Origin: Acorus gramineus
Taxonomy: Eukaryota > Streptophyta > Magnoliopsida > Acorales > Acoraceae
Assembly: GCA_030737835.1 (NCBI GenBank)
Contig: CM060847.1
Span: 19,178,898-19,242,897, forward strand
Length of the DNA: 64,000 nucleotides
Direction: 5' to 3'
Shown here: positions 2,881 through 51,600 of the stretch, piece by piece
How positions within the stretch are numbered: position 1 is the first letter of the stretch
How the letters are laid out: each line of letters begins with the position of its first letter
Notes under the pieces: generated by a model
Told to the model about the DNA's origin: nothing
The model's input: only the letters and a program-made list of their open reading frames with translations
Database searches by the model: none
Position numbers and translations under genes: made by a program

Positions 2881-4430
2881 GTAAATAAATTTATATTTCC
2901 TTGCAAAACTTACAAGTGTACAAGAGTACTTTGAAGCAATAGAAGATCAATGGGGGGGGGGGGGGGAAGAGGATTTAGAGTAGTTCAGGTGACTCTCTAT
3001 TACAAAATATGGGAGTGGGGGTTTGGTGGGGTTATAGGGAACAAAGTTTCATCTTATGCCAAAGTGTAATTCAACCCATACGGGTTGAATTTGGTGACCG
3101 TGATAATTTACAATATGAGAATATTATATTTACATTTGAACCATGATCTTTTCCTCGAAACTGCATATATATTTAATAGTCTTTCATGAATAAAACCACC
3201 TCATGATACCCAAAAAACCATTTGGATATAAATCAATTTCCATACAATTGTTCTAATACATCCACCTATTTTCATGCAAATACAAGCTGAAAATATTCAA
3301 AATAAATCTTGTATTTGAATAAAATACATCAAAATATCATGTTGAGCCTCAACTACTTAATAGTGGTGCCAATTTCAAAATAAAAAACTAAAATTAAATA
3401 AAAAACTGCAATTGTACTCACAATATTCAATTATATAAATTTTTGAATTATGTTGCACCACTCATTCCTCAATGTAGCTATTTCATCTTTTGTGTAGGAG
3501 ACTATTTCTTCGAACTACATGTGCGACTTAAATATGATATTAATTAGCCAATGAATTTAAATATATCAACCCAAACAAAAAATAGAGATCTTACCTTTTG
3601 AAAAATATAAATTTCTGGGTTTTCGATGATATCTTTCATTTACTTCATTACAAAATAACCACATTTGATATTTCCTCTTTGCTTCGAGCACTACAAATAT
3701 AAGTAAATCATAAATTCTAGGAAAAAAAATTATATAACATCATAGATATAATATTCAATAGTTAAAAATGCCTTGGAAATATTTGGGAGCAAACATAATG
3801 CATTGCTACAAGAAACAAAAGGCTCCGATCCAATGACTAAAATGTATTCACACTTAACTATCATTTTAGTAACCAAATATGATGTCTCACATTATTAACA
3901 AATTAAATTTAAATAGTTAGAGCTTTGCAAAAGGGAATAAAAAAAGAGCCATTCTCAACCTTTAGGGACTTATATATATATATGAAAGGAATGAAATGAT
4001 TGTAGCAATATAAACATAAAAAACAACTAAAGAGCACAAGCCTTCCATGTTCCAACATTTAAATCTGCCCAAGCTCATGATCCAATGATTAAAACAATGA
4101 CCTCACTTTTTTTATCCCACCATTCTTCTCCCATTTTCATCCTTGTTTCCGGTATGCACATGGTTGTCTTTAGCTTTCTCAAGCACAGATTGTTTAAAGA
4201 AAAAAAAAACTTGGTTTTGTTTGTGTGATCAAGTTTTTTTTTTTAAAAAAAAGATATATGCATATATGATTCCAAAAGATACCTCAGAAGAAAAAACTTT
4301 GAATCCATGTTTTATGATTTCATGATTTCAAAAGAAATTAAAAGATACAACAGTCATACCAAAACTTGAATCCAAGAGGTGATTTTTTTTACTTGCTTCC
4401 AATACTCATGTTGTATGTTTTCAATGCCCT
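2881..4430. other. Degenerate CACTA interior and unassigned AT-rich DNA
   Basis: AT-rich sequence between the CACTA terminus and its transposase remnant. It contains a run of 15 G at 2952-2966 and several poly-A and poly-T runs. The segment ACCCATACGGGTTGAATTTGGTGACC at about 3076-3100 echoes the subterminal repeats. No reading frame with recognisable similarity; probably decayed element interior. Confidence 0.35.
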
Positions 4431-4639
4431 ACAAAGAAACAATTTTGATATTAAGAGTAATGTTGTAATAAATATGAGGAGTACATGAACATAAAAATAC
4501 TTACAGGTTTTATGACCGTTTTGATTTCTTTACGTATCAAATGTGCCAATGGATCCAAATAATAAACTATATGTTCATTGGGGCTCATGATCAACAAGAT
4601 CCAACGTTGGCTAAACATTTTCAATAATTAAAATATGAA

Positions 4640-5690
4640 AATGTTAAAAATGCAATGAACATAATATTATAAATATACGTAAGTTATGAAATTTAGAAAA
4701 TTACCCCAGGTTACAAGGCAATAGAAATAGATCAACATGGGGAGCATTCCCAAACCGATCAGTCAATGCCCGCACAACTATTGATGATTTTTAGGCGGAC
4801 ACAGAAGTAGGATAAATCAATAACTGGAATTTACATTCACCTGCTGTAAATAGCTAAAAATTAAGAATAAATATTAGAAATTTAATGAATCTGTGATTGC
4901 ATACCACGTAGATATGATAATTTAACTCATCTCATGTACACCATACGACATGTGACATATAATGGGGAATCTACTGGATGACGCAATTGACCATCAGGAT
5001 CTATTTGACAAGCATGCCATGTTAAATCTTTGGCTATTTTTGCAGACTGGAACATTCTTTTCAATCTTGGAATAGGTGGAGTGTACCATAAAACTTTTGT
5101 AGGCCCACCTTTATTTTTCTCATTTGGTTTTTTATTTTCTTTCCATCTAGATACCCCACAAGTGGGACAAGAACTTAACTCCTTAAACTCCTTTCTGTAT
5201 AGTATGCAATCATTCGAGCATACATATATTTATCCATAGTCCATTCCTAACACATTCAATGTCTTCTTATCCTCGTACATGGATAAAGGTATCTCATTTT
5301 TTTTTCTGGCAACATCTCAGCCAACAATTGAAAAAGTTCTGAAAAACCTTTATCAGACCATCCATTCCTCGCTCTCACAGCATACAATTTGGCCAAAGTA
5401 AACAACTTTGTAAATTTCATGCATCCTGGATAAAAAGGTTTTACGGCATCTTCAAGTATGTCCTTAAACAAATCGGGATCACTTGTGTAATTATCATGTA
5501 TTGCTTCAACCATTTCGATTGTATTATTAGCAACTTCATCTAAAGGATTTTCAAACTACCCATCAGATACATTTTGTATTTTTATTCTACTTGTAGTTTG
5601 TCCAATAGGTATTCTTTCTACATCCCAGACTCATGTCCGATAACTCGAATGAAAATCATTAAAAACTAGATGGCCTTTTAACAAGCAAAT
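4640..5690 (-). pseudogene. CACTA TNP2-type transposase, 5' part remnant (left arm)
   Basis: On the - strand, 5513-5256 encodes a segment with KPFYPGCMKFTKLFTLAKLY and NGWSDKGFSELFQLLAEMLP, matching the conserved start of TNP2-type transposases of En/Spm elements (consensus YPGC..FTKL..L..LY..K.RNGWSDKSF..LL..L..MLP). Upstream sequence corresponds to ISRI-type text before the domain, and downstream sequence, traced through its inverted copy at 32700-51300, continues as transposase. The frame is interrupted many times, so no active protein is made. It lacks the N-terminal transposase-associated domain segment that the right-arm copy keeps at 32248-32448. Confidence 0.75.
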
Positions 5691-5708
5691 AGTATGGAAT
5701 TTTAAGTT

Positions 5709-6171
5709 GCCTACAGAAACAGCTTACCATTACAATGACATATTGGCAAACATCATCCGATCCATTCAATTTATTTTATTTTATTTCAAATGCGTTCTCG
5801 TCCCAGAATGAGGGGAAAGAAAAGTCAGTTGAACAATTCTTCGTTAATATAAAATTTCATAGAGATTTTCTTGGATTAATTCACCACCATATATCTGAAT
5901 GTGTCTGGTAAACATTAACTACTCATTATAAGATTAAAAGAATACTTATTTGACCAGGTCAAATTCTGGACAGAGATTACTTGTTATTATGACATTAATC
6001 TAATAAAGTGGACAGAGTCTGATTGATTTACTGACCATTTCAATGGCACCTGATCACTCTTCAATAACTATAAATAGCCAGCCATACACGAGAACTCACA
6101 ACCCACCAATCTCCAAATACTTCTGAGAACCTAAGCTTAGAGTAAGCTAAGTATTATTTGGATTGAATACA
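5709..6171 (+). promoter_or_regulatory. Promoter and 5' leader of GLP copy 1
   Basis: Contains a 13-base perfect palindrome TTGACCAGGTCAA at 5950-5962, formed by two head-to-head W-box cores (TTGAC), and a TATA box TATAAATA at 6070-6077, about 95 bases before the ATG. The block from about 5715 to the ATG is nearly identical before copies 2 and 3 and recognisable before 4 and 5. W-boxes bind WRKY factors, and W-box-rich promoters are known for other defence-induced GLP clusters, so pathogen or wound induction is a reasonable inference. Confidence 0.7.
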
Positions 6172-6972
6172 ATGGCTTCTGCAATGTTGATAGTTGTCCT
6201 CCTCGCCATGGCTTCCTCGGTTGTCCTCGCCTCGGACCCCAGCCCACTCCAAGACTTCTGCGTCGCCGACAAAGCTTCTCCAGGTACTACTATTAACACA
6301 CGCAGTTTCTATGCTTGATCAACTAGTACTTTATCACGTGATTGAATTGTCTAAATACATGTAATAATACTTGTATATAGAGAGCTCATTATGTTAACTG
6401 GGTATTTCATGTTTCCAGTTCTGGTCAATGGATTCGTCTGCAAGAACCCCATGGATGTGAATGCCGAGGACTTCTTCTTCTCAGGCCTGAACAAGCCAGG
6501 GAACACCGACAACAGACTTGGATCGAACGTCACCGCAGTGAACGTGAATAAGATAGCTGGTCTAAACACTTTGGGCATCTCTCTCGCCCGCATCGACTTC
6601 GCCCCATACGGGCTCAACCCACCACACACGCACCCCCGAGCAACGGAGGTACTTACGGTGATTGAGGGCACTCTCCTCGTTGGCTTCGTCACTTCCAACC
6701 CCAAAAACCGTCTGATCTTCAAAGTCCTCAACGCGGGTGATGTTTTCGTGTTTCCTGAAGGGCTCATTCACTTCCAGTTCAACCGTGGACACAAGAACGC
6801 GGTGGCAATCGCAGGTTTGAGTAGCCAAAACCCCGGTGTGATCACTGTCGCTAATGCGGTGTTTGGATCGAATCCGAAGATCGATGATGGAATTGTCGCC
6901 AAGGCATTTCAGGTGGACAAGAAAGTGATAGACTATCTCCAGAGCCAGTTCTGGATGGACAATAATAACTAG
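6172..6972 (+). CDS. Germin-like protein (GLP copy 1), two exons
   Basis: Exon 1 is 6172-6283 and exon 2 is 6419-6972; the 135-base intron has GT and AG ends (GTACTACT...TTTCCAG). The spliced product is 221 residues, the usual GLP length. Residues 1-20 form a hydrophobic signal peptide ending VVLA before SDPSP. Cys30 and Cys45 are placed for the conserved disulfide, and Asn74 is in an NVT glycosylation site. Cupin box 1 gives His107, His109 and Glu114; box 2 ([16 protein letters not shown]) gives His155, completing the metal site. The protein should be exported to the apoplast and assemble as an oligomer; oxalate oxidase or superoxide dismutase activity cannot be decided from sequence. AATAAA lies at 7074-7079. 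The product is identical to copy 2. Confidence 0.94.
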
Positions 6973-7540
6973 TGCTTTATTATGTCCTTCATTTCCTTAA
7001 TTAAAAAATAACTTTGACGATTATTGTTTCAATAAGCAGAGCATGCATGCACTTGTTTTGCAGTTATTTAAATAATAAAGAATGTATTTGTTTTCATAAA
7101 TTAATATTGGTAATGATCATAATGATACACAGTGTCTAGTGAATGTGTTTTATTTTTACTGGTCCATCTCCGTGAAAAGGAGAACAACAAAGAAAACAAG
7201 AGAGAAAAAAATAATTTCGAATACTAATTTATCTGTTTTACTTACTAAAATTAAAAAATTTACTCAATTTTCTAATATCTTATTTTTATACACCTTTCAC
7301 TAGTGTTCTGATATGCGGTATACAGTTTGTTAGCGGTTAGGGTACCGCACAGGATATATGCGGTATGAGTGAGTATATGTGGTTCTATAATATTTTATTA
7401 ATAATTTTTTTTTAATATGTAATAATTTATAAACAAGAGATAACAAGATAAATTTTGGAGACATTACAAATCAGATCTTTTTTTTCTCTTACTTTTAATC
7501 ACACATCATGGCATTAATGTTATTATTATTATGAACAAGA
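6973..7540 (+). repeat. GLP 3' flank after copy 1
   Basis: AT-rich non-coding DNA colinear with 484-1050, with the inverted flank of copy 2 (30420-30981) and with the flank of copy 3 (55825-56392). It holds the poly(A) signal at 7074-7079 and the TGATATGCGGTATACAG segment. No gene. Confidence 0.75.
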
Positions 7541-8030
7541 AAACAGGGCATTAGCTGCCAAATCATTTCTTTGCAAATCGTTTGCTGCAAAACTTTAATT
7601 TCGTAGCAAAATGTGACAATTGGCGACAAAATAATATTCGTTGCTAAAGGCCATTTGTGCGTAGCAAAAGATACCCTTTTGCTACGACAATCTAAGCGAA
7701 GCAAAAAGTCTCTTGTTCCTACGAAATTATTTCGCAGAAAATGGTTATCTTTTGCAACGAAAATAACTCGCATTCAAAAGGTTATCTATTGTGATGAATT
7801 TTTTATTTTCACAGCAAAAGATAACCTTTTGCTACGAACCTTTTGCTACGAACTTACTTCGCAGCTAAAAGTGTATGAATTTAATATTAAAAAAATGCAA
7901 ATCTTCCCATGTGAAATATTTCACATGAAAAGTTTAAATTTTCTTAGAAAAATCTTTCCCTTTGAAATTTTTTTAATGCAAAACCATTTGATAAATTAGC
8001 GAAACAAAACATAAATCTAAGATGATACAA
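7541..8030. mobile_element. TTTTGCTACGAA-rich repeat block, probable DNA-transposon piece
   Basis: Begins AACAAGAAAACAGGGCATTAGCTGC and then shows many short motifs in both orientations: TTCGTAGCAAAA, TTTTGCTACGAA, AAAAGATAACC and CGAAATAATTTCG-type palindromes. This resembles the subterminal region of a CACTA-like or other DNA transposon. It is inserted into GLP 3' flank that is uninterrupted after copy 0. Copies follow GLP copies 2 and 3. Copy 1 lacks a 27-base stretch (TTATGTAACTGCCTCGTACA region) that the other two share and has one extra CTTTTGCTACGAAC unit. The 128-codon open frame here is a by-product of the repeats. Confidence 0.55.
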
Positions 8031-8034
8031 ATAC

Positions 8035-8232
8035 CTACATCAGATGACAATCTGTATATACACAAAGATCTATGTGTTGTTCAATCATCGCAACCATAAA
8101 AGACTCTCTAAACCCTTCAATATGCAAAGTTGGGATTTGGATGACTATCAATGCAAGTGCTACTAGGCTATTGATTGAAACGGATTCTACCACTATTTTT
8201 GCTTGGGTCAAAGGGAAGGGGTGCCACCCTTG
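8035..8232 (+). pseudogene. LINE RNase H-like fragment, upstream half
   Basis: The + strand encodes KDSLNPSICKVGIWMTINAS followed by LLIETDSTTIFAWVKGKG. The IETDS..V..WVKGKGC pattern is typical of the RNase H-like domain at the end of plant L1-type LINE proteins (and of related host gene fragments). The coding sense stops at the hAT-type insert and resumes after it at 8803. Copies lie at 29719-29900 (inverted) and 56900-57097. Confidence 0.55.
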
Positions 8233-8794
8233 TAGGCCTGTCAATAGGACGGATACGGATTGAATAGGCCCATATCCGTATCCGTATCCGAATTGGATAT
8301 TTAAAAAAATATCTGTATCCGATATCCGACGGATATTTCAAAACACATATCCGTATCCGATCCGAAAATCCGGATACAGATTCGGATAATATCTGAAATA
8401 TCCGAACCAAATTAAAATATAAAGAATTTATGAAATCTTAAGTCCTAACATGGTTAAATAGGTATCCACCAAAGACATAGAAACACAAATCTTAATATAG
8501 TTAAACAAGTATCCAACATGGTTAAATAGGTTTGTGTTTTGTCCTAAATCATGAGCCATTGAATTTTCAGTTAAGGGTTGAAACTAATTTTAACATATAT
8601 AAATAAAATAACAGTTCGGATACGGATATTGTTCGGATCGGATATAGGTTATATCCGATCCGATCCAAAAATTTTTGGATACGGATAATTTGGTTCGGAT
8701 ACGGATACAGATTTTTGGATATCGGATATTTTTTCATTTTCGAATACGGATTCGGATCGGATAAGGATATTTTTTTGGATAATTGACAGGATTA
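8233..8794. mobile_element. Non-autonomous hAT-type element with ATCCGTATCC repeats
   Basis: The ends are imperfect inverted repeats: TAGGCCTGTCAAT at the left and ATTGACAGGATTA at the right. A perfect 8-base target duplication CACCCTTG flanks the element at 8225-8232 and 8795-8802. The 562-base interior is rich in ATCCGTATCC / GGATACGGAT and GGATCGGATA motifs toward both ends and encodes nothing. An 8-base duplication with TAGG..TGTCAAT ends is the pattern of hAT elements. It splits a LINE RNase H fragment. Copies: 29220-29710 (inverted) and a truncated one at 57098-57225. Confidence 0.8.
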
Positions 8795-8802
8795 CACCCT
8801 TG

Positions 8803-9240
8803 GAGCTCGATTCAATGTCTCTGATATATCCACCAAGCCCTAGCTGTTCTCCATGAGTTGTCTATCTCTCACATTCAATGGGAGGGCAACGTCCAAGTAT
8901 ACCTTTTGGCTTCTTATCATTCAGACTGGGGTGATTCTATCATCCTCCCATCTGATGTATGGCATGATTTATAGGCAGCCCTAGATCGTGACAAATCTGG
9001 CATTCCTTTTGTATGCAAAAGGGCATTCCTTTTGTATGCAAAAGAATGAAAGGATCTCTTGTCTTTTGCATATTCTTGTCTTGAATGCATTGAGTGGCTT
9101 TCTGAGTATTAAGGCATGCAGTTCGACTTGGATCGTTCTTCCCTCCATTGTGTTATGAATTCATTCTCTGCTTTTCATTTTGTAAAGATCATGAAATTTT
9201 TTGTAAAGATTTTCCTCATATAGCAATACAATATTGGTTA
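8803..9240 (+). pseudogene. LINE RNase H-like fragment, downstream half
   Basis: Continues from the hAT-type insert with the + strand sense VLHELSISHIQWEGNVQVYL and ASYHSDWG, matching the LL..LSISH..REGN..AD.LA end of LINE RNase H domains. The catalytic Asp position of the N.(A/V)D.LA motif is not preserved. Further on there is only decayed text, including a short tandem duplication of GCATTCCTTTTGTATGCAAA at about 9001-9045. Non-functional. Confidence 0.5.
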
Positions 9241-9422
9241 CCAATAAATAAAAAACAATGATTAGTCCCTTCCATACACTTTCCCATCCTTGTTGTCTAG
9301 AAGGAGACTCTCCAATTCATCCCAAAAACGGGATGGTTGATAAAAGGAGGTGCATATTGCATACTGATGAAACTAATTAAGGATTCCCAGATAATGTTCC
9401 CTCTATGTTTTGGAAGGTTATT
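9241..9422. other. Unassigned spacer
   Basis: About 180 bases between the LINE fragment and the short LTR element. Nothing recognised. The inverted counterpart is about 28650-28800. Confidence 0.3.
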
Positions 9423-11953
9423 TAATGCAGCATAGGAATTACACTCTCCTGTGGATCGCATCAAGGATGCAAGATCTATAGCTACAATGATGTTGTTGAT
9501 TTGCGAAGAATACCAGGATGATGGGCTTCAACGAGTCTGTTGATTCTTAAGAATACCAAAAACGATTGAAATTCTATGTAGTTGTTTATCCTTATAGGAT
9601 AACAAAATAAAATAGAGAAAATAAATAAATTCTATTTGTCAAAATATGAATTAATTATGTGATTACAAGGCCTATTTATAGAGCAGAGAATCCAACAAAC
9701 TAAAAAATTATTAAAATTGTAAATTAACCATAATCATCCATTTGTTAGTCCACAATGTTGATCGAATGGTCCATGATCACGCTATATCATTCCCTCCCTC
9801 TTGAGGAAATCTCGTCCTCGAGTTTGGTTGAACGATCTGGTGATGAAGTCAGAGCAATTGAAGACATGATTCACTGAATTTTGATTCTATGGCTTCAAGG
9901 TAATTCAACAAATCAACTTTTGCATTCTTTTGATCTCCGGAAGTCATAGGATTTTTTTTTTAATCTATATTGGATTGGAATGAAAATGATGGTCTCGTGT
10001 GTAAAATGCTTCTTGTGATGACTTTTAGATGGTGAAGAAGTACGAGTTAATTGAACGGGATAAAACATTTGAGGGGAGCTTTTGGGCACAATCTCCTTCA
10101 TCTCTTCATCAAAGATAGGTGGAAGGTCTGTTTCCTCGATCACTTCATCAATGATTTGTGGAAGGTTCGCATGCTCAATCTCTTCATCAAAGATAGGTGG
10201 AAGGTTCACATTTTCAATGTCTTCATCGAAGATGGGTAGAACGTTAACATTTTCAATCTCTTCATCGAAGATAAGTGGAAGGTTTGCCTCTTTGAACGGG
10301 TTGTCAAAATCACCATCAATAGGCTCCTTCACCACAGATCATGGGGCTAGTGACCGTGGGGTTGGTGGTTGCTCCCGATGTTGCATAAATACCGTCATCG
10401 CCTCCATCTGCTTTGTTAGCACATAGAATCGCTCATTCATTAACTAGTTCATTGCGTTGGTGAACTATTGGGCTTCATCACAACTATAGGCTTCGGTAAG
10501 AGGATGTCTTCTTAGTGGCATCTTCTCTTTTTTTTTAAATCTATATTGGATTGGAATGAAAATGATGTTCTCTTGTGTAAAATGCTTCTTGTGATGACTT
10601 TTAGATGGTGAAGAGGTATGAGTAAACTGAACGGGATAAAACATTTGAGGGGAACTCTTGGGCACAATCTCCTTCATCTCTTCATCAAAGATAGATGGAA
10701 GGTCTATTTCCTCGATCACTTCATCAATGATTTGTGGACGGTTCGCATCCTCAATCTCTTAATCGAAGATAGGTGGAAGGTTCGCATCTTCAATGTCTTC
10801 ATCGAAGATAGGTAGAACGTTCGCATTTTCAATCTCTTCATCAAATATAAGTGGAAGGTTTTGCCTCTTCGAACAGGTTGTCAAAATCACTATCAATAGG
10901 CTCCTTCGCCACAGATCATGGGGCTAGTGAGTAGTGACCGTGGGGTTGGTGGTTGCTCCCGATGTTGCATAAATGCCGTCATCGTCTCCATCTGCTGTGT
11001 TAGTGCATAGAATCGCTCGTTCATTAACTAGTTCATTGCGTCGGTGAACTGTTGGGCTTCATCACAACTGTAGGCTTCGGTAAGAGGATGTCTTCTCGGC
11101 GGCATTTTCTCTTTTTTTTTTTTTGAGTACATGGTGGATTGGAATGAAAAGTGTAATTTGAGGGATTGAGTGTTTTTTTGGATGAAAACTTGGGTGTGAG
11201 TGGTCGAATGAATTTTTTTTTTTAATTTGAAAACGTGATGTAATCGGTGGGGGGTGTATGGGTTGGCTGATTATCATGGAGATGAATTATTATTTTTTAT
11301 TTTTATTATTTTTTTGTGTGTGGTGTTGTACGGATGGGATGGGGTGGGATGGATTTTTTTTTTCAGGTTTGGGGTTGTATGGATGTGATGGGATTTTTTT
11401 TTTATGGGATGGATCACGGATTACCTAGATGAATCAACGAGGCTATAATACCAACTGATGCAGCGTAGCCCTACGCTCTTCTTCAGATCCGACCAAAGAT
11501 ACAAGATCTGCAGGCTTCAATAACGCTGTTGATTATTCACGAAGAATGTTAGGACGGCGGACTTCAACAATCTGTTGATTTCTCGAAGAAATACCAGATG
11601 GTGGAACTCTACGTAATTGATATTCACCATGAATAACTAAATGAAGGAAATAAATAAATTCTAATAACCAAATCTTTTTCTTAATTATGTGATTTCAAAG
11701 TCTATTTATAAAAGAGTTCTAACAAACTAGGATCTCAACAACTCTTTCAAATCACAAATAAATCTAACTAAATCCTAACTAAATTCATATTCGAAATCAA
11801 ATTCAAAAATTCAAATCTAAATTCAAATTCACATTTTTAAAATAGAAAAGAAATCCTAACAAACTGGAAAATTATTAAAATTGTAAATCAATCATCCTCT
11901 TACATTTGATAGTCCTCAATGTCGATCAAACGATCCATGATCACGCTACATCA
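9423..11953 (-). mobile_element. Short non-autonomous LTR retroelement with gag-like acidic-repeat region (left arm)
   Basis: Read on the - strand: 5' LTR about 11456-11953 (498 bases, TGATGTAGCG to CTGCATCA), a degenerate initiator-tRNA-Met primer site at 11441-11454 (TTGGTATTATAGCC), a short interior, a polypurine tract at about 9790-9806, and the 3' LTR at about 9423-9789. The interior has a gag-like opening (MPPRRHPLTEAYS) and an acidic region built from about 14-residue units of the type LPPIFDEEIENAN. No pol domains are seen, so it resembles the TR-GAG class of small LTR elements. An internal tandem duplication of about 585 bases is present here but not in the right-arm copy. Fossil, broken; no target duplication recognised. 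Confidence 0.7.
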
Positions 11954-12059
11954 TCTCCAAATGTCTTTAAAATCCTCACTCAACAGGAAGAGATTGGTAA
12001 TGATAGAATAAAAGTTTTGTGAATATTTCTTTGATCTCTTTTTCTATCTCATGACAATT

Positions 12060-12600
12060 TTTACTTCTAATTTAGTAGACGAGCGTTAGCAGCTATGCAA
12101 CGATCTTGTCACATTATTCTAATGCTCTCTGGGTAATTCGAGGGGACTTCAATGAAATGAGCTTCTGCCGTGAGAAAGTGGGTGGCTTTCCACCGCATAC
12201 TCATGTAATTTGTGGGAACTCGACCGTTTCTTTGGTTAACTTTCCCTGGATTGATAGTTTTACTCATTTTCATTTTCATCAACTTGGAGAAGGTCTTTCA
12301 GATCACTCGGTTCTCAAGCTTCTTGTAAATCTATTCTTATCCTAGAGGCCTAAACCTTTTAAAAATATTTTCAGATGTTCAAATTCCATCCAATTTTTTA
12401 GGCAGTAGTGGCCTAGTGGCCGAAGGTTGGGTGAGGGATTTACCTGGAACTCCTCTGTTTTAGCTTGCCAAGAAACTTCAGCATATGAATGCTATTCTCA
12501 GGAAGTGGAATAAGGAGGTCTTTGACTAGTTCAACATGCTCTCCAATCCAGTTAGTCTGAAACTAGTTTTTTCATCCACTCACGATGTGCATGTAAATAA
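12060..12600 (+). pseudogene. L1-type LINE fragment: endonuclease end and following linker
   Basis: The + strand encodes ALWVIRGDFNEMSFCREKVGG and later LGEGLSDHSVLKLL. GDFN and SDH are the catalytic-site motifs of the apurinic-type endonuclease of plant L1 elements. Downstream text (KPFKNIFRCSNS, then MNAILRKWNKEVFD) fits the linker between endonuclease and reverse transcriptase. No reverse transcriptase follows. The order relative to the RNase H fragment at 8-9 kb is reversed, so these are two separate LINE fragments. Inverted copy at about 26040-26590. Confidence 0.65.
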
Positions 12601-12689
12601 AAAAAAAATTGAAAAAGCTAACCTGCATCAACACCCTTAAATTTTTTTTACCCATTTATATACAATATAATGTATCATTTTATATATAT

Positions 12690-13193
12690 AATTGTTATAA
12701 TAAATTTTTTAATAATTATTAAATAAATCATTAGTGAAATTTATTATGAAGTCACAAATAAAAGAGTTATCTTATAACTTAAAATGGGTTGTTTTTCTTC
12801 CATATATAGATATTTCAATCAATCCTATATTGCAAAAATGCCCCATTTGAAACTCCAAAACCAACAATATATCTCGAATGGGTAAAATAACAACATTCAT
12901 GTACAATTTAAATAATTTGGAGGGGTATTGTTAGAAATAACAAATCATTAAGGATATTTTGCTGAAATGTGATTTTTTTAGGGGATATATACACAAAAAT
13001 GTTACGAATTATGGATCTTGGGATGCAATCGATGAAGATAAAATTAAACAATTCAAAGGAAGGACACAGAATTACGTGGTTCGGCAAATCTTGCCTATGT
13101 CCTCCATGGAGCATACTAGAGATCAATCAACTACCAACCAGAAGTTTTTACAATGACACACCGAAAATAAAAACCCTAGATCCTAATTAAAAA
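12690..13193. repeat. LTR-element-like remnant, second copy
   Basis: Direct copy of about 1640-2130 (TTAATAATTATTAAATAAAT, then GGATCTTGGGATGCAATCGA, then the TTTTTACAATGA segment). It ends abruptly where the chromovirus begins at 13194. Together with 1640-2130 it brackets a unit of about 11 kb holding the CACTA piece and GLP copy 1. No protein recognised. Confidence 0.6.
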
Positions 13194-15867: not shown

Positions 15868-15982
15868 AAAGTTTGTATTAGAGCCTGGTCCTATCATAGC
15901 CAATTGTTTTTCGTAGAGATGAGTCCTAGGATTTCTATATGAGTATTTTGATCCTAGTGTCTGGTTTTCTTAGGTTGCTGAT

Positions 15983-17330
15983 ATGCCTCCTCGTAGAGGA
16001 ATGCGTGGACGTGGTCCCTCTCGGCCTTTGGAGGTTCCCGGACCTACCAGAGGTGAGGATGCTACTGGAGAGTCCTCGGCTATGGGGCCAGGACTGGCGC
16101 AGGAGCCTCCTGCATGGGAGCGTGCTTACACTCGGTTAGAAGATCTGGTGGAGACTCAGAGCAGACCACTTGAGGCCCAGACGAGGGCGTTAGCTGAGCA
16201 GGCTCGAGAGATTCAGGAGCTGAGGGCGGCCCGCGAGGCAGTTCCACAGGTCCCCTTGGTGGCAGATCCACCTGTGGTGCCCGACGTACCCCCTGTTCCC
16301 GTGGTGATTCCAGCGGTGGGAGTTCAGGATCCCCTGGAGAGGGAGGTGGAGCTGGAGGCTGCAGCGCGAGTGCATCAGAGTGGCCTCACTGCCTTTCTGA
16401 AGCTCCATCCTCCCGAGTTCTATGGACAAACGACGGACCCCCTTGCCCCTGAGCGATTGTTGATGGAGGTGGACAAGATCTTCTCAACCATGCACTGCAC
16501 CGACCACCAGCGTGTCTCCCTGGCCACCTTCATGCTGAAGGGTAGCGCCGCCGACTTGTGGGCCACCCGATCGGTGGACATTCCCGAGGGAGTGGAGCGG
16601 CTTTTATGGGCGGGGTTCCGGAGGTATTTCCTGGAGGTGTACTTCCCGTTTTTGACTCGCCAGATCGTGATGCGGGAGTTCAAGCAGCTGACGCAGGGCT
16701 CCATGTCAGTGGCGGACTACTCCACACGCTTCACGAGGCTTTCCAGGTTCGCCCCAGCCTTGGTGATGGATGAGGAGACGCGGTGCCGTCGTTTCGAGAT
16801 GGGTCTCATTAGCACCATCCGGGTGCATGTCTCTTCTCAGGCGTTCACGAGGTACTCTGACTTGGTGTCTTGGGCGAAGACAGTCGAGCGAGACCTCGGG
16901 GTCTCCATGGGGGTTCCAACCCCTTCTGCAGACCAGAGACTTCCCAGGAGCCAGGACCAGGGACAGCGCAAGAAGAAGCGACCCCGCTTTGATCAGTCAG
17001 CGGCTGCCGCTATTCCAGTCGATGTGGTGCCAGTGCGAGGTCCAGCACCCATTGCGGAAGTACCAGTCCAGGCCATGCAGCCGGGGAGGCGGCGCTGTTA
17101 CCATTGTCGGTGCGTCGAGCATATTGCATATGATTGCCCTGATGCTGACCGACCCCGCGTGCTGCCTCCGCAACAACAGCAGCAGCTATAGCAGCAACCG
17201 TACCAGCAGCGACCTCAGCGCCAGCAGCAGCAGCGGCCTCAGCGCCAGCAGCAGCAGCAGCCTCAGCGTCAGCAGCAGCAGCCACAAGATGGTCGTGTTG
17301 ACCAGAGGAGGCAGCCAGTGCAGCCTGCGA
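15983..17330 (+). mobile_element. Chromovirus A gag region
   Basis: Starts MPPRRGMRGRGPSRPLEV. The retrotransposon gag core follows (PPEFYGQTTDPLAPERLLMEV through MSVADYSTRFTRLSRFAP), then a basic segment (RKKKRPRF), a zinc knuckle CYHCRCVEHIAYDC and a Gln-rich, CAG-repeat tail. It would form the particle shell and bind element RNA. Treated as a fossil part of element A. Confidence 0.85.
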
Positions 17331-17399
17331 GGCGTGCCCCTGCTCCTCAGCTGCAGTTTGTTTAGGGCAGAGTTGTAGCACTCTCGGTCGAGGAGGCGC

Positions 17400-32240: not shown

Positions 32241-32247
32241 GTTTTGA

Positions 32248-40500: not shown

Positions 40501-40662
40501 GACGATAGCTAACAGTCCAAAATTTTAGCGGTTCCGATCGAAAAATGAAAAAACTCAAAAACTGCCAAAATGCTCCAATGGTTACCAGCAGGTAAAAAGT
40601 GACACATATATAACATTCTCCCCCCTTAGGAAATTTTGTCCTCAAAATAAATACAAGAACAT

Positions 40663-43500
40663 CTAAGAAGGGAAAAGATGCGGATACGCGTCACGCATGG
40701 CGTCCTCGAGCTCCCAAGTGGCCTCGGCACCGGAACGGTGCTGCCATCGCACCTTGACCAGCTGGACGGTCTTGGTGCGGAGCCTCTTCTCGCGGCGGTC
40801 CAGGATCTCAATCGGCTGCTCAACGAAAGACAAGTCCGGCTCGAAGACGAGCGGCTCGAACGGGATGACGTGAGCAGGATCGTGGACATAGCGCCTCAGC
40901 TGCGAGACATGGAAGACGTCATGGGCCTGAGCCAACTGTGGGGGCAGAGCTATGCGATAGGCCACCTCTCCAACTCGCTCGAGGATGAGGAACGGCCCAA
41001 TGAAACGCGGACTCAGCTTGCCCCGCACACCGAAACGGAAGATGCCCTTCATCGGGGACACCTTCAAAAACATGGTCACCGACCTCGAAGGCGAGCTCAC
41101 GGCGACGACGGTCGGCGTAGCACTTCTGATGACTCTGAGCGACTCGGATACGCTCGCGAATCGTCTTCACCATCTCTGAGGTCTGGTGAACGATCTCTGG
41201 TCCCTCCAACTGGCGCTCTCCGACCTCGTCCCAACACAGGGGGGCCTACAGCTGCGGCCATAGAGTGCCTCGTAAGGAGCCATCCGGATGCTCGAGTGGT
41301 AGCTGTTGTTGTAGGCAAACTCCACCAACGGAAGGTGCCTCTCCCAACTGCCCCCAAAATCGAGAACACATGCTCGCAGCATGTCCTCAAGAGTCTGGAT
41401 CGTCCTCTCTGACTGGCCGTCTGTCTGCGGATGAAACGCTGTACTGAAATGGAGGTTCGTACCAAGGGCGTGCTGGAGGCTACGCCAGAACCTCGAAGTA
41501 AAACGCGCGTCTCGATCGGAAATGATGCTGACTGGAGTGCCATGGAGATGGACAATCTCGGAGACAAATAACTGCGCCAGGGTGTCCAGAGAATCGGTGA
41601 GTCGGATGGGGAGGAAATGAGCAGACTTCGTCAGCCGGTCGACGATCACCCAGATGGCATCGCGACCCGAACGTGACCTCGGCAAACCCGAGACGAAGTC
41701 CATGGTGATCTGCTCCCACTTCCACTGAGGGATCTCAATGGACTGCAGCTTCCCCGCAGGGCGCTGATGCTCCGACTTCACCTGCTGGCATACTAGGCAT
41801 CGGGCAACGAAACGGGCAATATCCGTCTTCATCCCGCGCCACCAGTAGCCGCGACGAAGGCCCCTGTACATCTTCGTGCCACCAGGATGCACTGTGTACC
41901 TCGAACGATGGGCCTCGTCCAGAATCTTCCGCTTCAGCTCTGCGTCGTCGGGAATGCACACTCGGCCTCTGAATCGCAGGATCCCGTCCGCGCGAATCTG
42001 GTAGTCCGGACGCTCGCCCCGGGCGACGCCTTCAGAGAGGACTATAAAATGCGGATCCTGAGCCTGAGCCGTGCGGATATCGTCGAGAAGGACTGGCTGC
42101 ACCACCAGCCTGGCCAAAAAGCCACCCGCAGGAGTCTCTCGAACACTGATCCAGCAAGCGGCCTCCTCCAGAAGCCTCCAACGACGGACAGCCATGTGGG
42201 CGGCCATGCCCAAGGGCTGCCTACTGAGCGCATCTGCACCGACATTCGCCTTACCCGGATGGTAAGCGATGTCACAATCATAGTCCGTCAGGAACTCAAC
42301 CCAACGTCTCTGACGCATGTTGAGCTCCGGCTGGGACTGCAGATATGTCAAGCTCTTATGATCAGTAAAGAGCTCGAACTCCTCTCCATAGAGGTAATGC
42401 CTCCACATCTTCAGCGCAAAGATGATCGCTGCCAACTCAAGGTCATGGGTGGGGTAATTCTGCTCATGGGGCTTCAACTGACGAGACGCGTAAGCCACAA
42501 CCTTACCGTGCTGCATCAGGACGCAACCCACACCCAACTGCGATGCATCTGTGTAAACTGCGAACCCACCACTCCCAGACGGAAGGGTAAGAACTGGCGC
42601 TGAGGTGAGCCTTCGCTTCAGCTCCTGGAAGCTCTCCTCGCAAGCAGGGGACCACTCGAACCGAACATCCTTCCGAGTGAGGCGGGTAAGAGGAACGGCT
42701 ATCTTCGAGAAACCCTCGACAAACCTCCTGTAATAACCCGCCAAGCCCAAGAAGCTCCGAATCTCTGTGGGGTTCGACGGTCGACGCCAATTCGACACGG
42801 CGAGCGTCTTCTCCGGGTCCACAGATATGCCCTCACCGGAAATCACATGGCCCAGAAAGGCCATACGCTCCAACCAGAACTCGCACTTGCTGAACTTGGC
42901 GAACAACTGATGTCTGGCCAAAGTCTCCAAGACAGTGCGAAGATGGTGAGCGTGCTCCTCAAGACTCCTCGAGTACACCAATATGTCATCGATGAATACT
43001 ACCACAAAGGAGTCGAGGAAGGGCCGAAATACCCGGTTCATCAGATCCATGAAGGCCGCTGGCGCGTTCGTCAACCCGAATGGCAGTACTCTGAACTCGT
43101 AGTGCCCATACAGGGTGCGAAAGGCCGTCTTCGGAATGTCTGACTCCCGGATCTTCAGCTGGTAGTACCCCGAGCGGAGATCGATCTTGGAAAAGACACG
43201 CGCTCCCTGGAGCTGGTCAAACAGATCGTCGATCCGTGGCAACGGGTACTTGTTCTTCACTGTCCGTTTGTTCAGCTGCCTGTAATCAATACACAGCCGC
43301 AGCGAACCGTCCTTCTTCCGGACGAACAGGACAGGGGCTCCCCACGGAGAAACACTCGGACGTGCGAAGCCCTTCTCCAGCAACTCCTCCAACTGCTCCT
43401 TGAGCACCCTCAGCTCTGCAGGGGCCATCCGGTACGGAGCTCTCGAAATCGGCTCGGTCCCCAGAATCAGATTGATCTCAAACTCGATCGCGTGATCCGG
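40663..43500 (-). mobile_element. Chromovirus B pol region: RT, RNase H, integrase, chromodomain
   Basis: On the - strand: reverse transcriptase about 43430-42720 ([26 protein letters not shown]), RNase H about 42600-42200 ([14 protein letters not shown]), integrase about 41960-41200 with its CLVC zinc-finger end, MDFVSGLP and ISDRDARF, and the chromodomain about 40850-40663 (VKVRWQHRSGAEATWE). Copying, RNA removal, insertion and chromatin targeting of the element. Part of a fossil. Confidence 0.88.
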
Positions 43501-45461
43501 CGGTAATCCCGGAAGATCATCGGGAAAACCTCAGGATACTCTGCCACGACCGGAGTCTGACTGATATCTGCCCGCAGCGGTGCATTCTCCTGAGCAATGT
43601 ACGCTAGAAAGCCCTCGCATCCACCCTGAAGGAGTCTCCACGCCTGCATGGACGACACGAACCCCAAAGGGGCTACGTCACGATCGCCCATGAACTGGAA
43701 GGACCTCCGACCCGGAAGGTGGAAAGACACCGACTTGGCAAAACAGTCGATGCTGGCGTGACTAGCCGCAAGCCTATCCATTCCCAGGATGGCATCAAAG
43801 TCCGTCATCGCGAGCTCCACCAGCTCCACTGGAAACTCATGCTCCGCAACCTCTACCGCACACCCTCGGTACACAGAACTGAGGAGAATACGGTCTCCCA
43901 CGGGCAATGATATCTCCAAGATAGCATCCAAAGGGGCGGACGCCACGCCCGTCCGTCTCGCGAAAGCGGGAGACACGAACGAGTGGGTGGCTCCGGAATC
44001 AAACAATACATAAGCAGGAAGCTGGGAGATCTGAACAGTACCTCTGACCACGCTGTCTGATGCCTGACCCTCCTCTACCGAAAGCGCTGCCACTCGGCCC
44101 TGGGCGAACTGCGGCTGAGGAGCAGGGGCACGCCTCGCCGGCTGCGCTGGCTGCCTCCTCTGATCAGCACGGCCACCCTGTGGCTGCTGCTGCTGACGCT
44201 GAGGCTGCTGCTGCTGCTGGCGCTGCTGCTGAAACGGCTGCTGAAACGGCTGCTGCTGCAACTGCTGCTGCTGCGGAGGCATCACTCGGGGTCGGCCAGC
44301 GTCGGGGCAATTATACAAGATATGCCCGACACGCTGACAGTGATAACAGCGCCGCGTCTCTGGTCGCCTCGCCTGGACTGGCACTGCTGCGATGGGTGCT
44401 GGACCTCGCGCTGGCACCGCATCTGCTGGAGGAGAGGCAGCCGCTGACTGCTCAAAGCGGGGCCTCTTCTTCTTGCGCTGTCCCCGGTCCTGGCTCCTGG
44501 GTGGCCTCTGGTCTGCCGACGGGGTCGAAGCCCTCACGAGGATCCCGAGGTCTCGCTCAACTGTCTTCGCTCGAGACACTAAGTCGGAGTACCTCGTGAA
44601 TGCCTGGGAGGTAACGTGCACCCGAATGGCGCTGCTGAGACCGAGCTCAAATCGACGGCACCTCGTCTCCTCGTCCATCACCAAAGCTGGAGCAAATCTG
44701 GATAGCCTCGTGAAGCGCGTGGAGTAGTCAGCGACAGACATAGAGCCCTGCGTCAGCTGCTCAAACTCCTGCATCACTATCTGACGTGTCGAGAAGGGGA
44801 AGTACTCCTCCAAGAAATATCTCCTGAATCCCGCCCACGTAAGCTGCTCCACACCCTCGGGGATGTCCACTGATCTAGTAGCCCACCAGTCGGCGGCGCT
44901 ACCCTTCAGCATAAAAGTGGCCAGGGAGACTCGCTGGCGGTCGGTGCAAAGCATGGTCGAGAAGATGGTATCCACCTCCATCAACCATCTCTCTGGAGCA
45001 AGGGGGTCCTCCGTCTGACCCTGGAACTCGGGAGGGTGGAGCTTCAGAAAGGCTGAGAGGCCACTCTGCTGCACCCTCGCTGCAGCCTCTAGCCCCACCT
45101 CCCTCTCCTGGGGATCCTGAACTCTGACCGCCGGAACCACCACGGGAACTGGGGGTACATCGGGTACCACAGGTGGATCTGCCACCAAGGGAACCTGCGG
45201 AACTGCCTCGCGGGCCGCCCGCAGCTCCTGAATCTCCCGTGCCTGATCTGCCAATACTCTGGTCTGGGCCTCCAATGCCCTGGTCTGCGTCTCCACCAAG
45301 TCTGCTATCCGCGCAAACGCGCGCTCCCAGGCAGGAGGCTCCTGCGCCAATCCTGGCCTCACGGCTGAGGACTCACCAATAGCATCCTCGCCCCTGGTAG
45401 GTCCGGAAACCTCCAAGGGTCGAGAGGGACCACGTCCGCGCCGTCCTCTGCGAGGAGGCAT
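43501..45461 (-). mobile_element. Chromovirus B gag-protease region
   Basis: Starts MPPRRGRRGRGPSRPLEV at 45461. Gag core with PPEFQGQTEDPLAPERWLME and WWATRSVDIPEG, basic segment RKKKRPRF, zinc knuckle CYHCQRVGHILYNC (about 44345-44304), a Gln-rich tract encoded by CTG/CAG repeats (about 44280-44190), and the protease with FDSGATHSFV near 44000. The layout equals that of element A gag. Confidence 0.88.
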
Positions 45462-48416
45462 ATCAGCAACCTAAGAAAACCAGACACTAGGATCAGAATA
45501 CTCATATAGAAATCCTAGGACTCATCTCTACGAAAAAGAAGACAATTGGCTCTGACAGGACCAGGCTCTGATACCAACTTTTGTCACGCCCCAGGGCGGC
45601 CGTCCCCGGGTCGCGGCAAGTGTATACATGATATCAGCAGTCTATACAGGAGATCAATAAAATACTCTAAACAACAACTGAAATGACAACACAGATGAAA
45701 TCAAAGCTGACATGATATATACACAGATAGCGGAAGCTAAAAAGACTGAATCTGTAATCCAAAAACATACTACAGACTCGATACATAATCATATGTCCTG
45801 TGAGAGCCAATATATACATATACAACCAAATACAATCCAAACTGGGTGCCCAAGCACAGAAATATATACATACAATAAAAGGAAGGATGCTGATGGCCTC
45901 AAAACTCGAGGGACGTGGCGCTACTCCGCTACTGGTGTAGTCGCTCGGGAAGCTCCTCCTTCAAGTCCGCCTCGGTAATCACTGAAGAAAATAATTATGC
46001 GAGGGGTGAGCCACACGCTCAGTGAATAGCACAACCCATGCATCACAGTTTATATTAACCACAATTAATAGCAAAAAGCCTCAAAGTGGCATAATCAACA
46101 CAAGTCCAGTGGGTCGCTACATCGCCGAACCACCACACCCTCACCCTCACCCCTCAATAGGTGACAAAGGATATTGGGACTTAATAGGCTGATAATCATC
46201 CTTACATAATCCTGTGGGTCGCCACATCGCCGGCCCACCACACCCTCACCCTCACCCCTCAATAGGTGACATAGGCTCTTGGGACTGACTAGGCTGTTGG
46301 TCACCCTTGGTCCACCGATAGTCTCTCCCCACTCCGTAGGCCGTTTGGCCACTCCCACATTCAGCACAGTCCGTCTACCAAATCAGGAGGTACCTACTGA
46401 TGGGAGCCCCTGCACGGGACGACCTTTCTAACGCTAAGGTAGTCTCTACACGGATTCAACGAAGGGAACAGAACAGCCTATCCATCGCACATGATCCACT
46501 CGGATCCGCTGACAACACATCTCTACAACTCTAATGTCTTGAATTCTTCAGAATTCCACCAGCGCGCATAACCAAGATGCGGGGAATACCTAAGATAATA
46601 ATGAGGAAAGGAAACCTTGGGAGGACAACCTGAGGTCCCGATATAGGACATTCCGCCAACCAAACAAGGAACACGGAGTACCCTAGCCCGGGTCTCAATG
46701 TTGACCTCGCAAGACCCCCCTTTAATATTCCCTAAGGCATGCTAAAAATATCTTAAGTCTGCATTTAATTTAATAAATCAAACTAATAGGACGCATGCAT
46801 AGGTCGAGGTTTTCCTAGCATGATAACGAGGTGACAGGATGCACGGCTCATACACATATCCTAAGGGTGCAAGTCCCTAACATACAAGTCTAGGGTGGCA
46901 TGCATTCTACACATTAATCATGCTTGCATGGATTACAATTAACAAGTTAATATCAACTGTGGTACCCCAGGGGAGGGTGGTATACGCCCAAGTGCATGTA
47001 GCGCCTCCCAACTGGGTTGGGTTGTCCCACTCACAGGTAACCGGGTCATCGCGCGACCGTCCGTCAAGATCTGCAAGACAGGGTAACCCACTTGGTGAGT
47101 AAAATACACAAATACCACAAAATACACAAAAACACACAAATAAACACCTAGTACTCGGGCAAACGTACATACGGCCTGTACGCACGCTAGCCCGAGCACC
47201 CCGACTCACTCCCGAACCCTCGGCAACCACCCGCACGACCACCCGCCTGCGGATGCACCGCCGCACCTCAGGCCGCGCACCCAGGCGCACCGTCGGGCCC
47301 CTGCCCGCACGCCTGGTCACGCTGCCGAGCCACCCGGGTGCACCGCGCGCCCACTGCGCCCCATCGCAGCAGCCCGCGCGCACACCGCACGCCCCGCGCC
47401 CAGCTCCTCGCCCCGCGCGCACCATCGCTCGCCTAATCGCGCCCTCGCCTCGCTCCGCGCGCACCCCGCGCGCACCACCGGCTCGCCCAGCACTCCATCG
47501 ACTCGCCGCGCGCTCACAGCGCGCCTGCGCCCCCGCGCAGCGCTCCGCGCGCACACCCCCGCACGGTGCCCTGCACACAGCGCCCCATCGCCCACGACCA
47601 GCGCCCAGCACACCCGCGCCCAGCGCCCAACACGTGCGCCTAGCACACCGCCCAGCACGCCCTCCAGCTCCACCCGAGCGCACGCCCGCGCGCATGTTCA
47701 CGCGCACACGCGCGCGCGCCCAGCCTGCTGCTCTGCCTGCTGCGCTGCTTGCTGCCTGTGCTGCCAACCTGCCCGAGGCAGTCAACCACCCTGCCCGAGC
47801 CACCCTACCTCCTCTATCCGGCCACCAATCACCTCCAACAGCCACCAATCACGCCCCCTCACAGCCAACAACACCCAAACCCACCCTCCTAACAAGCATC
47901 TAAACATGGAAAAGAAGGAAAAAGAGCTTACCAAGGAAAGGAGAGGAAAGGAAGGGAACCGGAAGCTCTTCTTGCACCGAAATGCCTCCCCAAGGATCTC
48001 CACCACCAAGACCTCTTCCCACCTCCGAAAGGGCCGGATCTATCCTTTCTATGTTTTGAGTTTTAAGTTCTAAGCCCTCGAGGTGGCTCAAAACTTAGAA
48101 AAGAGAGAGAGGGGGAGAGAGAAATTCCAAGGAAGGAGAAGATGAATAGTGGGAGATATTTTAGCTTCTCACTTTAAATAAGTCAAACCTCACTTGAATT
48201 AGGGCTAATAAAGATTAATTAGGCTTAAGGACTAGATTAGGTGAGTTAAGTGGGCTTTGACTTGGGTCAACCCAACCACACAAAAAAACAAAAAGGGTTG
48301 ACCAAGTCATGGGCTCACTTTGACCGAGTCAACTCCCCCAATGACTTCTCGCTCGGTAAAACTGTCAAAATGCTCCAATGGTTACCAGCAGGCCAAAAAG
48401 TGACACATATATAACA

Positions 48417-49800
48417 CGGCCCCCGCGGCCTCAGTCCCTACACCCTTGCCTTCCTCTGCACCAACTGTGCCGGAGGCTAAAGCCTCAAAGGCACCCTTAG
48501 CCCTTCTCTCCTCCTCCTCAACCCTGGCCTTTGTGGCCCCCCTGTCCAACATCCCCACAATAGCGTCTAAAGATGCCCTCACCTCCTCACTAACTCCCTC
48601 AGCCCCTACCCCCTCGACCGCACCCTCAGCTGGTCCTTCGGCCTCCAAAACTACGCCTTCGGCAATCGCCGATTGGGCCCCACGCCTCCTCTTGCGTGTA
48701 TAACCTATCACACTACCCCCTACCCCCAAGACAGCCCCCGAGGATGCACCCACACCTCCACCCTCGCCCACCAATGGCATCTCTGCCGATTGGGTCGTCT
48801 CCTCCACGACCCTCCTCTCCGCCCCGTCGCTCTCTGATGACCTAGTCCCCGAGGCAGCCCCCCTCTGCCCTCGGGAAGACCAGAGACGCTTCATCATCGA
48901 AGCCGTCTTCTTCCCCTTCGTCATCTCCTCCGATTTCATGAAGAAAAGAAAACCCACCCCAAAGGAAACTAGGGCTTCAAAATCAAGAAGAAAGGAGTGA
49001 TCTAGGGCGAATCAAAGTAAAGGAAATAAAGGTTTTTTGGTTTCAAGCAGAGAAGAAGAAGAAGAGAGGGAAGAGCAACCGTTTTTATAAACGTGCAGGA
49101 GAGAGAGGGTCCCTTTTTCGGTTATAAAGGGCCCAGTCGGCCGGCGGCTACTCGCGAGTAGCCCTCCCCCCCTATCCAACGGCTAAATACAAGTAGCCAC
49201 CCCTCCCTGCTGGCTAAACACCACTAGCCGCCCCCTGCCAGCTTCTCAAACACTCTTATTTCCTAGTTTTCTAAAACCAAACAGCCATGTATTGGTTTAT
49301 TTCCAAGTTTTACTTGATTAAACACAACTTTTTTGAAGTTTTACCACAATTAACACTACCATTCAGTTCAAATTTGTTCAGTTCTAGTTCTTTTTTGAAA
49401 TCTTTGTCTTTCGAATGATCCAATTCACCAAATCAAAAACACTTTATTTTACTTTCTGTCCGCGATATCTCCTTGATTTGCTGAGCTACCCAAGCACGGG
49501 TACGGTAGGAACAAGGAAACTGACGCTGGGCTGCTCTGTGCACGATGGCTAAGAACCTCGTCCGAGGGTTGGATCACTCGCTTCCTTACTTTTACTCACT
49601 CCCCCACCTGGATCACTCCTTAGATGACTATTCTAGTCAAAACCCAGCCTCTGATGACCTAAATTAAACTCCCTGAATGGTATTTGGTCATGTGTCCTAA
49701 ACTTCTTGAAGGCTGGACCGACCAAAATAAGGGTCTCTTTCCTTATCATTGATCGACGACTTTTTGTTTCACGCAAAGACTCCGTCCGATGAGGGACAAT
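48417..49800 (-). mobile_element. Element C interior, right part with low-complexity coding-like stretch
   Basis: 48957-48440 on the - strand opens with MKSEEMTKGKKTASMMKRLW and runs into Ala/Gly/Glu/Val-rich low complexity; it may be the beginning of the antisense PMD-type reading region. 48960-49260 is purine-rich leader-like DNA containing short copies of the GGCGGCTA..TAGCCG motif also found in the LTRs. 49260-49800 is AT-rich and ends with the polypurine-like tract before the right LTR. Part of a fossil. Confidence 0.5.
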
Positions 49801-51076
49801 TGTAGATACCATAATTTTGACCGTCCAAAGAAAAGAAATTTACTTCAAGTAATATTGGAAACGACCACATTTGGACATCTAACAGAAAACTCCCTTAGAA
49901 ACCAAGACCGGAAACCCTAAGTCCAACACTTAGAAAAATCTAAGAACCTGGACATGGGCGGCTACTTGAGAGTAGCCCCTCATACCAGGCGGCTAGTTTC
50001 AACTAGTCGCCCCCCAAACCAATCCCAAACCGCCTTTCTGGATGGGACATAAAGCAAGCATGATTGCGGCGGATTGTCCCTTTTAGCCGCCCCATCTCAG
50101 CCGGTTCAACCTTAGTAACCGACACAAGCCACCGCTTGTCAGAGATGGGACGTTTGGCAGGTTATGATGGGGGTGGCTACCTGAGAGTAGCCACCCCTCA
50201 CCAGGCGGCTAGTTAACACTAGCCGCCCCTAGCCTGGACATTGTCAAAGAACAAAGATTTAATGGAATGTCAAATCAAGCACCTTATTATCCATTTTGAT
50301 CTATTGTCTAGTTGACACTCCCCTACACATCATTTACTAAAAATAGGGGGTCTCTAAGCATTCATTAATCATCAATTAATTCCCAAGCATAATCAATAAT
50401 ACGCAACAACCCACATTCCCAATACAAGCCTATACCCCCCACACCACCACTTCAAAAACCCTTGATAGAGAAAGTGAGAGAGAAACCCATTCCTTGCATA
50501 AATCCACTCTCTAAAACCCAGATTAAACCTAGCTTAGTCTTTGCCAACACCCAAAACCAAACTCTACCCAGGTTCTGCCCAAATCGAACCAGGTCTCAGG
50601 CGGCTACTTATACCCAGCCGCCCCCACCAAGCGGCTAAATCCAACTAGCCAGCCCTTCCCCTACCCCACCTAAGTCCCAATTCTCCTTTAGTCAGGTTCC
50701 CAAAGCAAAAGAGGATCCTTGTCTTCACCTCTGTGTATGGTATATCCATGTCTTAGAGTTGAGACCCCACAAACTCCCCCACGAAGGCGATCAAATCCAC
50801 CCTCAACTTTTCCTGCTTTTTGAGAAAAGCAGGTGGCGATCACAACCACCCCTGAATCCTCTTGAGGACCCGTCGGCCGCCTTAGCCAGGAACGAAAAAA
50901 CCAAACCACCCCCCCTTCCGAGAGACGATCTGACCGAGCCTGCCAAGGCGCAGCTCTCCGGATCTGAGCCTCCGAAGAACCCCCACACACGCAGACCCCA
51001 AAAGGAGCAGGAAGAGAGGGAGGAAGGCTTTCTGGAGCACCCCCAACCACCCCCCTTCCAAAATCCGATACCGACA
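49801..51076 (+). repeat. Right LTR of element C
   Basis: TGTAGATACC to ATACCGACA, 1276 bases. It contains several GGCGGCTAG..CTAGCCGCC-type inverted segments and a TATA-like ACTAAAAATAGGGGG near 50340, and is followed by the TTATG target duplication. The left counterpart is 32995 to about 34193. Confidence 0.75.
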
Positions 51077-51600
51077 TTATGGTGTACATGAGGTAAGTTA
51101 AATTATCATATCAATGTGGTATGCAATCATAAATTCATTAAATTTCAAATATTTATTATTAATTCTCAGCTATTTACAAAAGGTGAATGTAAATTCCAGT
51201 TATGGATTTATCAATCCTACTTCTGTGTCCGCCTAAAAAACATCAATAGTTGTGCGGGCTTTGACTGATCGGTTTGGGAATGCTCCCCATGTTGATCTAT
51301 TTCTATTGCCTTATAACCTAGAGTAATTTTCTAAATTTCATAAGTTACGTATATTTATAATATTATGTTCATTGCATTTTTAACATTTTCATATTTTAAT
51401 TATGGAAAATGTTTAGCCAACATTGGATCTTGTTGATCATGAGCCCCAATGAACATATAGTTTATTATTTGGATCCATTGGCACATTTGATTCGTAAAGA
51501 AATCAAAACGGTCATAAACCTGTAAGTATTTTGATGTTCATGTACTCCTCATATTTATTACAAAATTACTCTTAATCTTAAAATTGTTTCTAAGGGAGCT
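51077..51600 (+). pseudogene. CACTA TNP2-type transposase remnant, continued (right arm, distal)
   Basis: Picks up exactly where 32994 stopped: GGTGTACATGAGGTAAGTT is the reverse complement of the left-arm text near 4930. It includes the inverted counterpart of 4740-4800 (FGNAPHVDL-type text) and ends at about 51595, mirroring 4430. Broken. Confidence 0.7.

Follow-up and report, generated by a model that had tools for sequence, protein, structure and literature searches.

An inverted unit in a germin-like gene array, and near-identity confined to the tract around its gene

The window analysed here (the whole stretch of 64,000 nucleotides, C1:19178898-19242897) carries two germin-like (GLP) genes with identical coding sequences, one in each of two mirrored units, the left arm L and the right arm R. 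The arms are near-identical in a tract of about 1.6 kb around the gene, and the flanks to the left and right are more diverged than the tract; the tract is therefore younger than the arms. The best explanation, which we regard as probable, is that R is an inverted member of a GLP array and that the tract was later homogenised by ectopic gene conversion. The proteins would then be identical because this homogenisation was late. A preliminary description of this DNA had instead put the identical proteins down to mirror duplication of one segment. This is not supported, since in two flank blocks L and R are no closer to each other than L is to a third unit, D.

Two mirrored units within a GLP array

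The arms were delimited by self-BLAST and arm-by-arm BLAST (Table 1). The mirrored arms of the preliminary description were confirmed as six blocks in mirror order at 90.4-96.5% identity, far above chance. The inverted match also goes beyond single transposons. Some of its blocks are nevertheless dispersed repeats: on the left side, positions 4430-4957, 4964-5711, ~8400-8796 and part of ~11450-11955 are also found on other contigs. A match restricted to transposons was rejected, as the GLP core and the parts at 8.9-9.95 and 11.2-12.7 kb are common to the arms with their order kept. The arrangement had been called head-to-head, but the plus-strand left gene and the minus-strand right gene converge, and the orientation is tail-to-tail. 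L and R adjoin in the array, with a spacer of ~13 kb that is mostly retrotransposon. A hairpin transcript, raised as a possibility in the preliminary description, would have to read through both arms with this spacer between them. R takes up nearly a full period of the array, starting at 4435 and coming round to the counterpart of 2898; L has the first part only (13128-13193) of its inward continuation.

Table 1. Coordinates of the features in the window; mismatches are given as mismatches/aligned bases.
Feature	Position	Strand	Details
Left arm L, one direct-orientation GLP unit	4435-12727	+	BLAST; sister copy C 99.8% in two flank blocks
Inner part of right arm R (inverted GLP unit)	25911-32994	-	BLAST
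Right arm R, outer part, beyond LTR insertion	51077-51591	-	Starts with target site duplication (TSD) copy TTATG (51077-51081)
R inward continuation	25093-25899	-	Window 2083-2898 and unit D 19489284-19490093 are homologous
L/R block	4435-4945 / 51591-51078		94.0%, BLAST
L/R block	4934-5298 / 33001-32639		90.4%, BLAST
L/R block	5454-5688 / 32650-32419		90.6%, BLAST
L/R block	5711-8292 / 32232-29649		96.5%, BLAST
L/R block	8329-10536 / 29688-27536		91.5%, BLAST
L/R block	10528-12727 / 28120-25911		94.3%, BLAST
Left GLP gene	6172-6972	+	Exon 1 6172-6283, intron 6284-6418, exon 2 6419-6972; 221 aa
Right GLP gene	30982-31782	-	Exon 1 31671-31782, exon 2 30982-31535
Homogenised tract	L 5969-7583 / R 30344-31974	L +	L-R 1/1604
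Tract, promoter part			L-R 0/192; L-D 1/203
Tract, exon 1			L-R 0/112; L-D 2/112
Tract, intron			L-R 0/135; L-D 3/135
Tract, exon 2			L-R 0/554; L-D 19/554
Tract, 3' part			L-R 1/611; L-D 48/564 (D alignment stops at 7541)
Tandem duplication in L, ~576 bases	9952-11150	+	Two copies, 90.9% identical; one copy in each of C, D and R
Third GLP copy G4	54563-57224	+	5 mismatches to L over 5711-8364 (2.65 kb); protein differs by V197L
Broken GLP copy G5	57226-61433	+	Exon 1 split by solo LTR 57554-60736, TSD CCAGC
Retrotransposon complex between arms	13194-25067	+	LTR-internal-LTR-gag; ends abruptly at 25067
LTR retrotransposon within R	32995-51076		TG..CA; TSD TTATG at 32990-32994 and 51077-51081; LTRs begin at 32995 and 49801
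Ty3-type element nested in R's LTR insertion	37543-48361	-	gag, protease, RT, RNase H, integrase
Inner inverted junction	25067-25093		Truncated retroelement, ~25 unmatched bases, then inverted unit
Outer inverted junction	51591-51592		R meets plus-strand array

The left GLP protein contains a Cupin_1 domain (1.8e-53), and its mature form is similar over the full length to barley germin (PDB 1fi2, 2et7; E 3.9e-55, query 21-215). Barley germin is an oxalate oxidase; any oxalate oxidase or superoxide dismutase activity of the present protein would be putative. The presence of intact genes with identical proteins in both arms was borne out, their coding sequences matching exactly, and the splice sites are the same in all 8 of the copies compared. 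At the site in segment C (see below) that corresponds to the third copy, G4, this gene is missing, window positions 54215 and 57226 lying ~300 bases apart there; either a recent gain in one segment or a loss in the other would account for this.

A search of the genome (398.6 Mb, 137 contigs) with the GLP protein gave 99 matches at 1e-20, 60 of which lie on C1 between 19.0 and 20.1 Mb. Of these, 40 are at 19.01-19.61 Mb, with 32 on the plus and 8 on the minus strand; the other 20, at 19.82-20.09 Mb, comprise 6 plus and 14 minus. Five pairs of matches are halves of single genes, which leaves ~55 GLP loci over ~1.1 Mb. The locus thus qualifies as a tandem cluster, uniting several GLP genes that belong to a single clade. 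A second, smaller GLP group, on both strands, lies at C2 9822773-9979107; five of its members have a common score and a common in-frame stop.

The array also contains segmental copies ~70-90 kb long. Segment A (offset -78.1 kb) matches the first 6.1 kb of the window at 99.7% and then runs into 10,000 N; segment C (offset ~+88.8 kb) matches window 1-22512 and, after 10,000 N, 48621-63146. These N runs of exactly 10,000 (19106898-19116897 and 19289246-19299245) each cut into the copied segment where the inverted repeat lies or close to it. Among the 79 matches listed for the interior of R, no second copy near 98% over the full length was found, which is consistent with C's right arm lying inside the N run.

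Elsewhere in the array, C1 19840001-19870437 and 20009001-20084975 appear to form a larger inverted repeat, one arm of which is ~45 kb longer than the other. The sampled pair 19840001-19843474 / 20084975-20081501 has 32 mismatches (95.8% including gaps) and the pair 19866501-19870437 / 20012922-20009001 has 6 (99.5%). The view that inverted duplications are rarer than tandem ones is weakened for this array, where 22 of the 60 GLP matches are on the minus strand and this larger inverted repeat lies ~0.65 Mb off.

Divergence of the flanks and identity of the tract

Unit D (19485727-19493909) lies in direct orientation ~300 kb from L and has the order expected of a tandem array: its arm tail leads continuously into a stretch resembling window 1638-3217, which is followed by one resembling 4200-5688 and by the GLP gene. 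Two flank blocks outside the gene, 8896-9950 and 11202-12727, were compared between units. Divergence there is 110/2512 for L-R, 107/2527 for L-D and 82/2490 for R-D, but 5/2558 for L and its sister C. Since L-R is about equal to L-D and R-D is lower, R is an inverted member of the array and not demonstrably a copy of L. Shared derived sites in the flanks (the outgroup covers part of one block) number 3 for R-D, 5 for L-D and 2 for L-R; from these sequences, L, R and D would have split at about the same time, in star-like fashion. A sister relationship of R and D was considered but not adopted: their closeness, unrooted, is partly due to the longer branch of L, the tree with two outgroups has a support of 73 and the derived sites are indecisive.

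The differences that had been described between the arms are real, although one must be read the other way round. About 190 bases had been taken as extra on the right; the segment (R 32233-32418, minus strand, ~186 bases) is present in both R and D, with 13 mismatches in 185, and BLAST found none of it in L, C or A. It was therefore lost in the left lineage rather than gained on the right. The tandem duplication of L is single in C, and the first 9 informative sites of C's copy agree with left copy 1 and the next 36 with copy 2. This is a clean join of both left copies, so C lost one; recombination has thus also taken place elsewhere in the array.

Within the tract L and R differ at 1 of 1604 positions. 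Outside it the aligned arms differ at 257 of 5106 positions, a count that, like that for the tract, leaves out the badly alignable stretches 8290-8370 and 9940-11150. The longest mismatch-free run between L and R is 1500 columns; the best of 10,000 shuffles gave 359. The core (5711-7541) has 11 mismatches in 1820 between L and R, far fewer in proportion than the two flank blocks (Fisher p=5.7e-16). In the control pair L-D there is no such dip (core 79/1807 against the flank value, p=0.82). The control is not flat for all pairs, as R-D divergence is higher in the core than in the flanks (p=0.024). The edges of the tract are sharp: R-specific bases lie on either side, and L, G4 and C agree just outside.

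It could be argued that R arose by a recent plain inverted duplication of L, the identical genes being its direct relic, and the mirror order over 8 kb, the identical coding sequences and the position of L and R as neighbours would all fit. However, the flank blocks of the pair are far more diverged than its core, D is as near to L, and nearer to R, than L is to R, and the ~185 bases that R shares with D are not in L. Only flanks that mutate many times faster than the core would rescue this explanation, and the L-D control speaks against them; we consider it improbable. Alternatively, purifying selection could hold both genes identical, in keeping with the intact genes and the conserved splice sites. 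Against this, the identity also covers the intron and ~600 bases 3' of the gene, and the coding sequence of D, a unit equally related in the flanks, departs from that of L at 21 positions, of which 10 fall in residue-changing codons. Selection as the sole cause is very improbable indeed.

Confinement of the near-identity to the 1.6-kb tract points to later gene conversion. We infer that conversion, rather than other copying or a consensus artefact, made the tract, and that L and R were direct partners. At sites 6895 and 7272 L agrees with R against G4 and C, and at site 7480 L agrees with G4 against R and C; this pattern of 2:1 weakly favours direct exchange between L and R. G4 may have been a participant in the conversion, given its near-identity to L over the whole 2.65 kb and its state at site 7480. 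Furthermore, L and C differ at 21 of 1828 core positions, in excess of their flank blocks (p=6.8e-5); exchange therefore went on after the segmental duplication that separated L and C, in one or the other. Between L and C there are 23 differing sites over the tract, some of which have the outgroup state while others are found in C only, and change in C or in L, R and G4 could either be the source. As in a gene-converting palindrome, the inverted arms bear genes and the tract identity stands far above that of the flanks, with a control pair to set it against. Homogenisation nevertheless covers ~1.6 of 8.3 kb and does not reach over most of the arms.

Insertions, junctions and assembly

The right arm has been broken by a later insertion, the LTR retrotransposon that separates its two parts. 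The insertion site is empty in L, C, A and D. A frame of 243 aa at 35812-36543, inside this element, matches a plant mobile domain (1.9e-27). Together with the germin-like cupin and the Ty3-type elements, this domain indicates a plant genome. D is likewise an empty site for the retrotransposon complex between the arms, the left flank running on there unbroken. The two LTRs of the insertion in R differ by a K2P of 0.0975, against 0.0495 for the arms. This order conflicts with an insertion younger than the split, so that faster change of the LTRs or some other exchange is needed to explain it. LTR-based dating was dropped for this reason, and no dates were drawn.

At the inner inverted junction the unit is preceded by retroelement and unmatched bases; it is a single instance among the 68 matches listed, none of the others spanning it. 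A 9-base word shared near this junction was left unused, as it could be chance. The outer junction occurs again in segment C, where 701 bases match at 100%. With retroelement and unmatched bases inside and no unit sequence outside, the junctions give no clean picture of either an inversion or an inverted duplication. Inversion in place of an existing direct unit, without duplication, would agree with R spanning nearly one full array period. It would leave unit sequence beyond the right-hand breakpoint, but BLAST of 3001-6000 against 50801-52600 found no substantial match past 51591, and on the left the break falls within a truncated retroelement. As a later deletion could mask an inversion, this origin of R is possible, if rather doubtful.

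It is also conceivable that the near-identity or the structure is partly an artefact of assembly or polishing, through cross-copy read correction or collapsed or duplicated haplotype segments. The equivalent placing of the 10,000-N runs in segments A and C, the high identity of A to the start of the window and the single instance of the inner junction among the matches listed would be in line with this. The window, however, is free of N, as is the surrounding 172 kb (19116898-19289245); the outer junction is repeated exactly in C, the TSD of the LTR insertion is clean, and the tract has sharp edges, with many R-specific bases on each side. We think an artefact unlikely.

Returning to the explanation by an inverted array member and later conversion, the course of events was probably as follows. 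The GLP array would have grown through tandem and segmental duplication, and one unit, R, would have come to lie reversed beside the direct unit L, the units having split at a similar time (3-5% flank-block divergence). R would later have been split by its LTR retrotransposon, the arms themselves being parted by another retroelement complex. Much later, the ~1.6-kb tract comprising the promoter-proximal region of the GLP gene, the gene and its 3' flank would have been equalised by ectopic gene conversion, most likely of L with R.

Relation to known clusters and palindromes

GLP clusters are well known (PMC5085655, PMC12348945); for tandem members, the first of these papers gives counts of 11 (rice chromosome 8) and 12 (Arabidopsis chromosome 5). 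There, as here, germin-like genes with two exons have multiplied at a single locus. The array described here differs in its 60 matches (~55 loci), its extent of ~1.1 Mb, the presence of both orientations and its segmental copies of ~70-90 kb; the word "orientation" is absent from PMC5085655. A literature search by titles and abstract openings found no published description of this inverted GLP pair. PMC5085655 links rice GLP arrays with quantitative disease resistance, and so the upkeep or change of array members may have some practical bearing.

Near-identical mirrored genes are easily mistaken for a fresh inverted duplication. The present pair is a clean example of homogenisation within a large GLP array, for which the flanks and the non-coding control bases could be brought to bear, as could a third unit that lies in array order. 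More tentatively, and we would not put it above a minority view, the locus may be an amplicon-like array outside the known sex chromosomes, in which inverted units recur and exchange, and direct conversion between inverted neighbours keeps a stress-related gene identical while its surroundings drift. If this were true, the pair in the window would be an old, small case, and the repeat at 19.84/20.08 Mb would be both younger and larger.

Arm-to-arm gene conversion is known from the palindromes of the mammalian Y chromosome. It has also been described for palindromes of the willow W chromosome, with a 3-kb stretch without paralogous variants (PMC7023750). There too, the inverted arms are older than a far shorter near-identical stretch. 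The present case differs from the willow palindromes so described in having 8-kb arms, a 1.6-kb tract and a third, direct copy, G4, that is near-identical as well. It is a fresh instance of two known kinds, the GLP cluster and conversion between inverted arms, by a mechanism that is already known.
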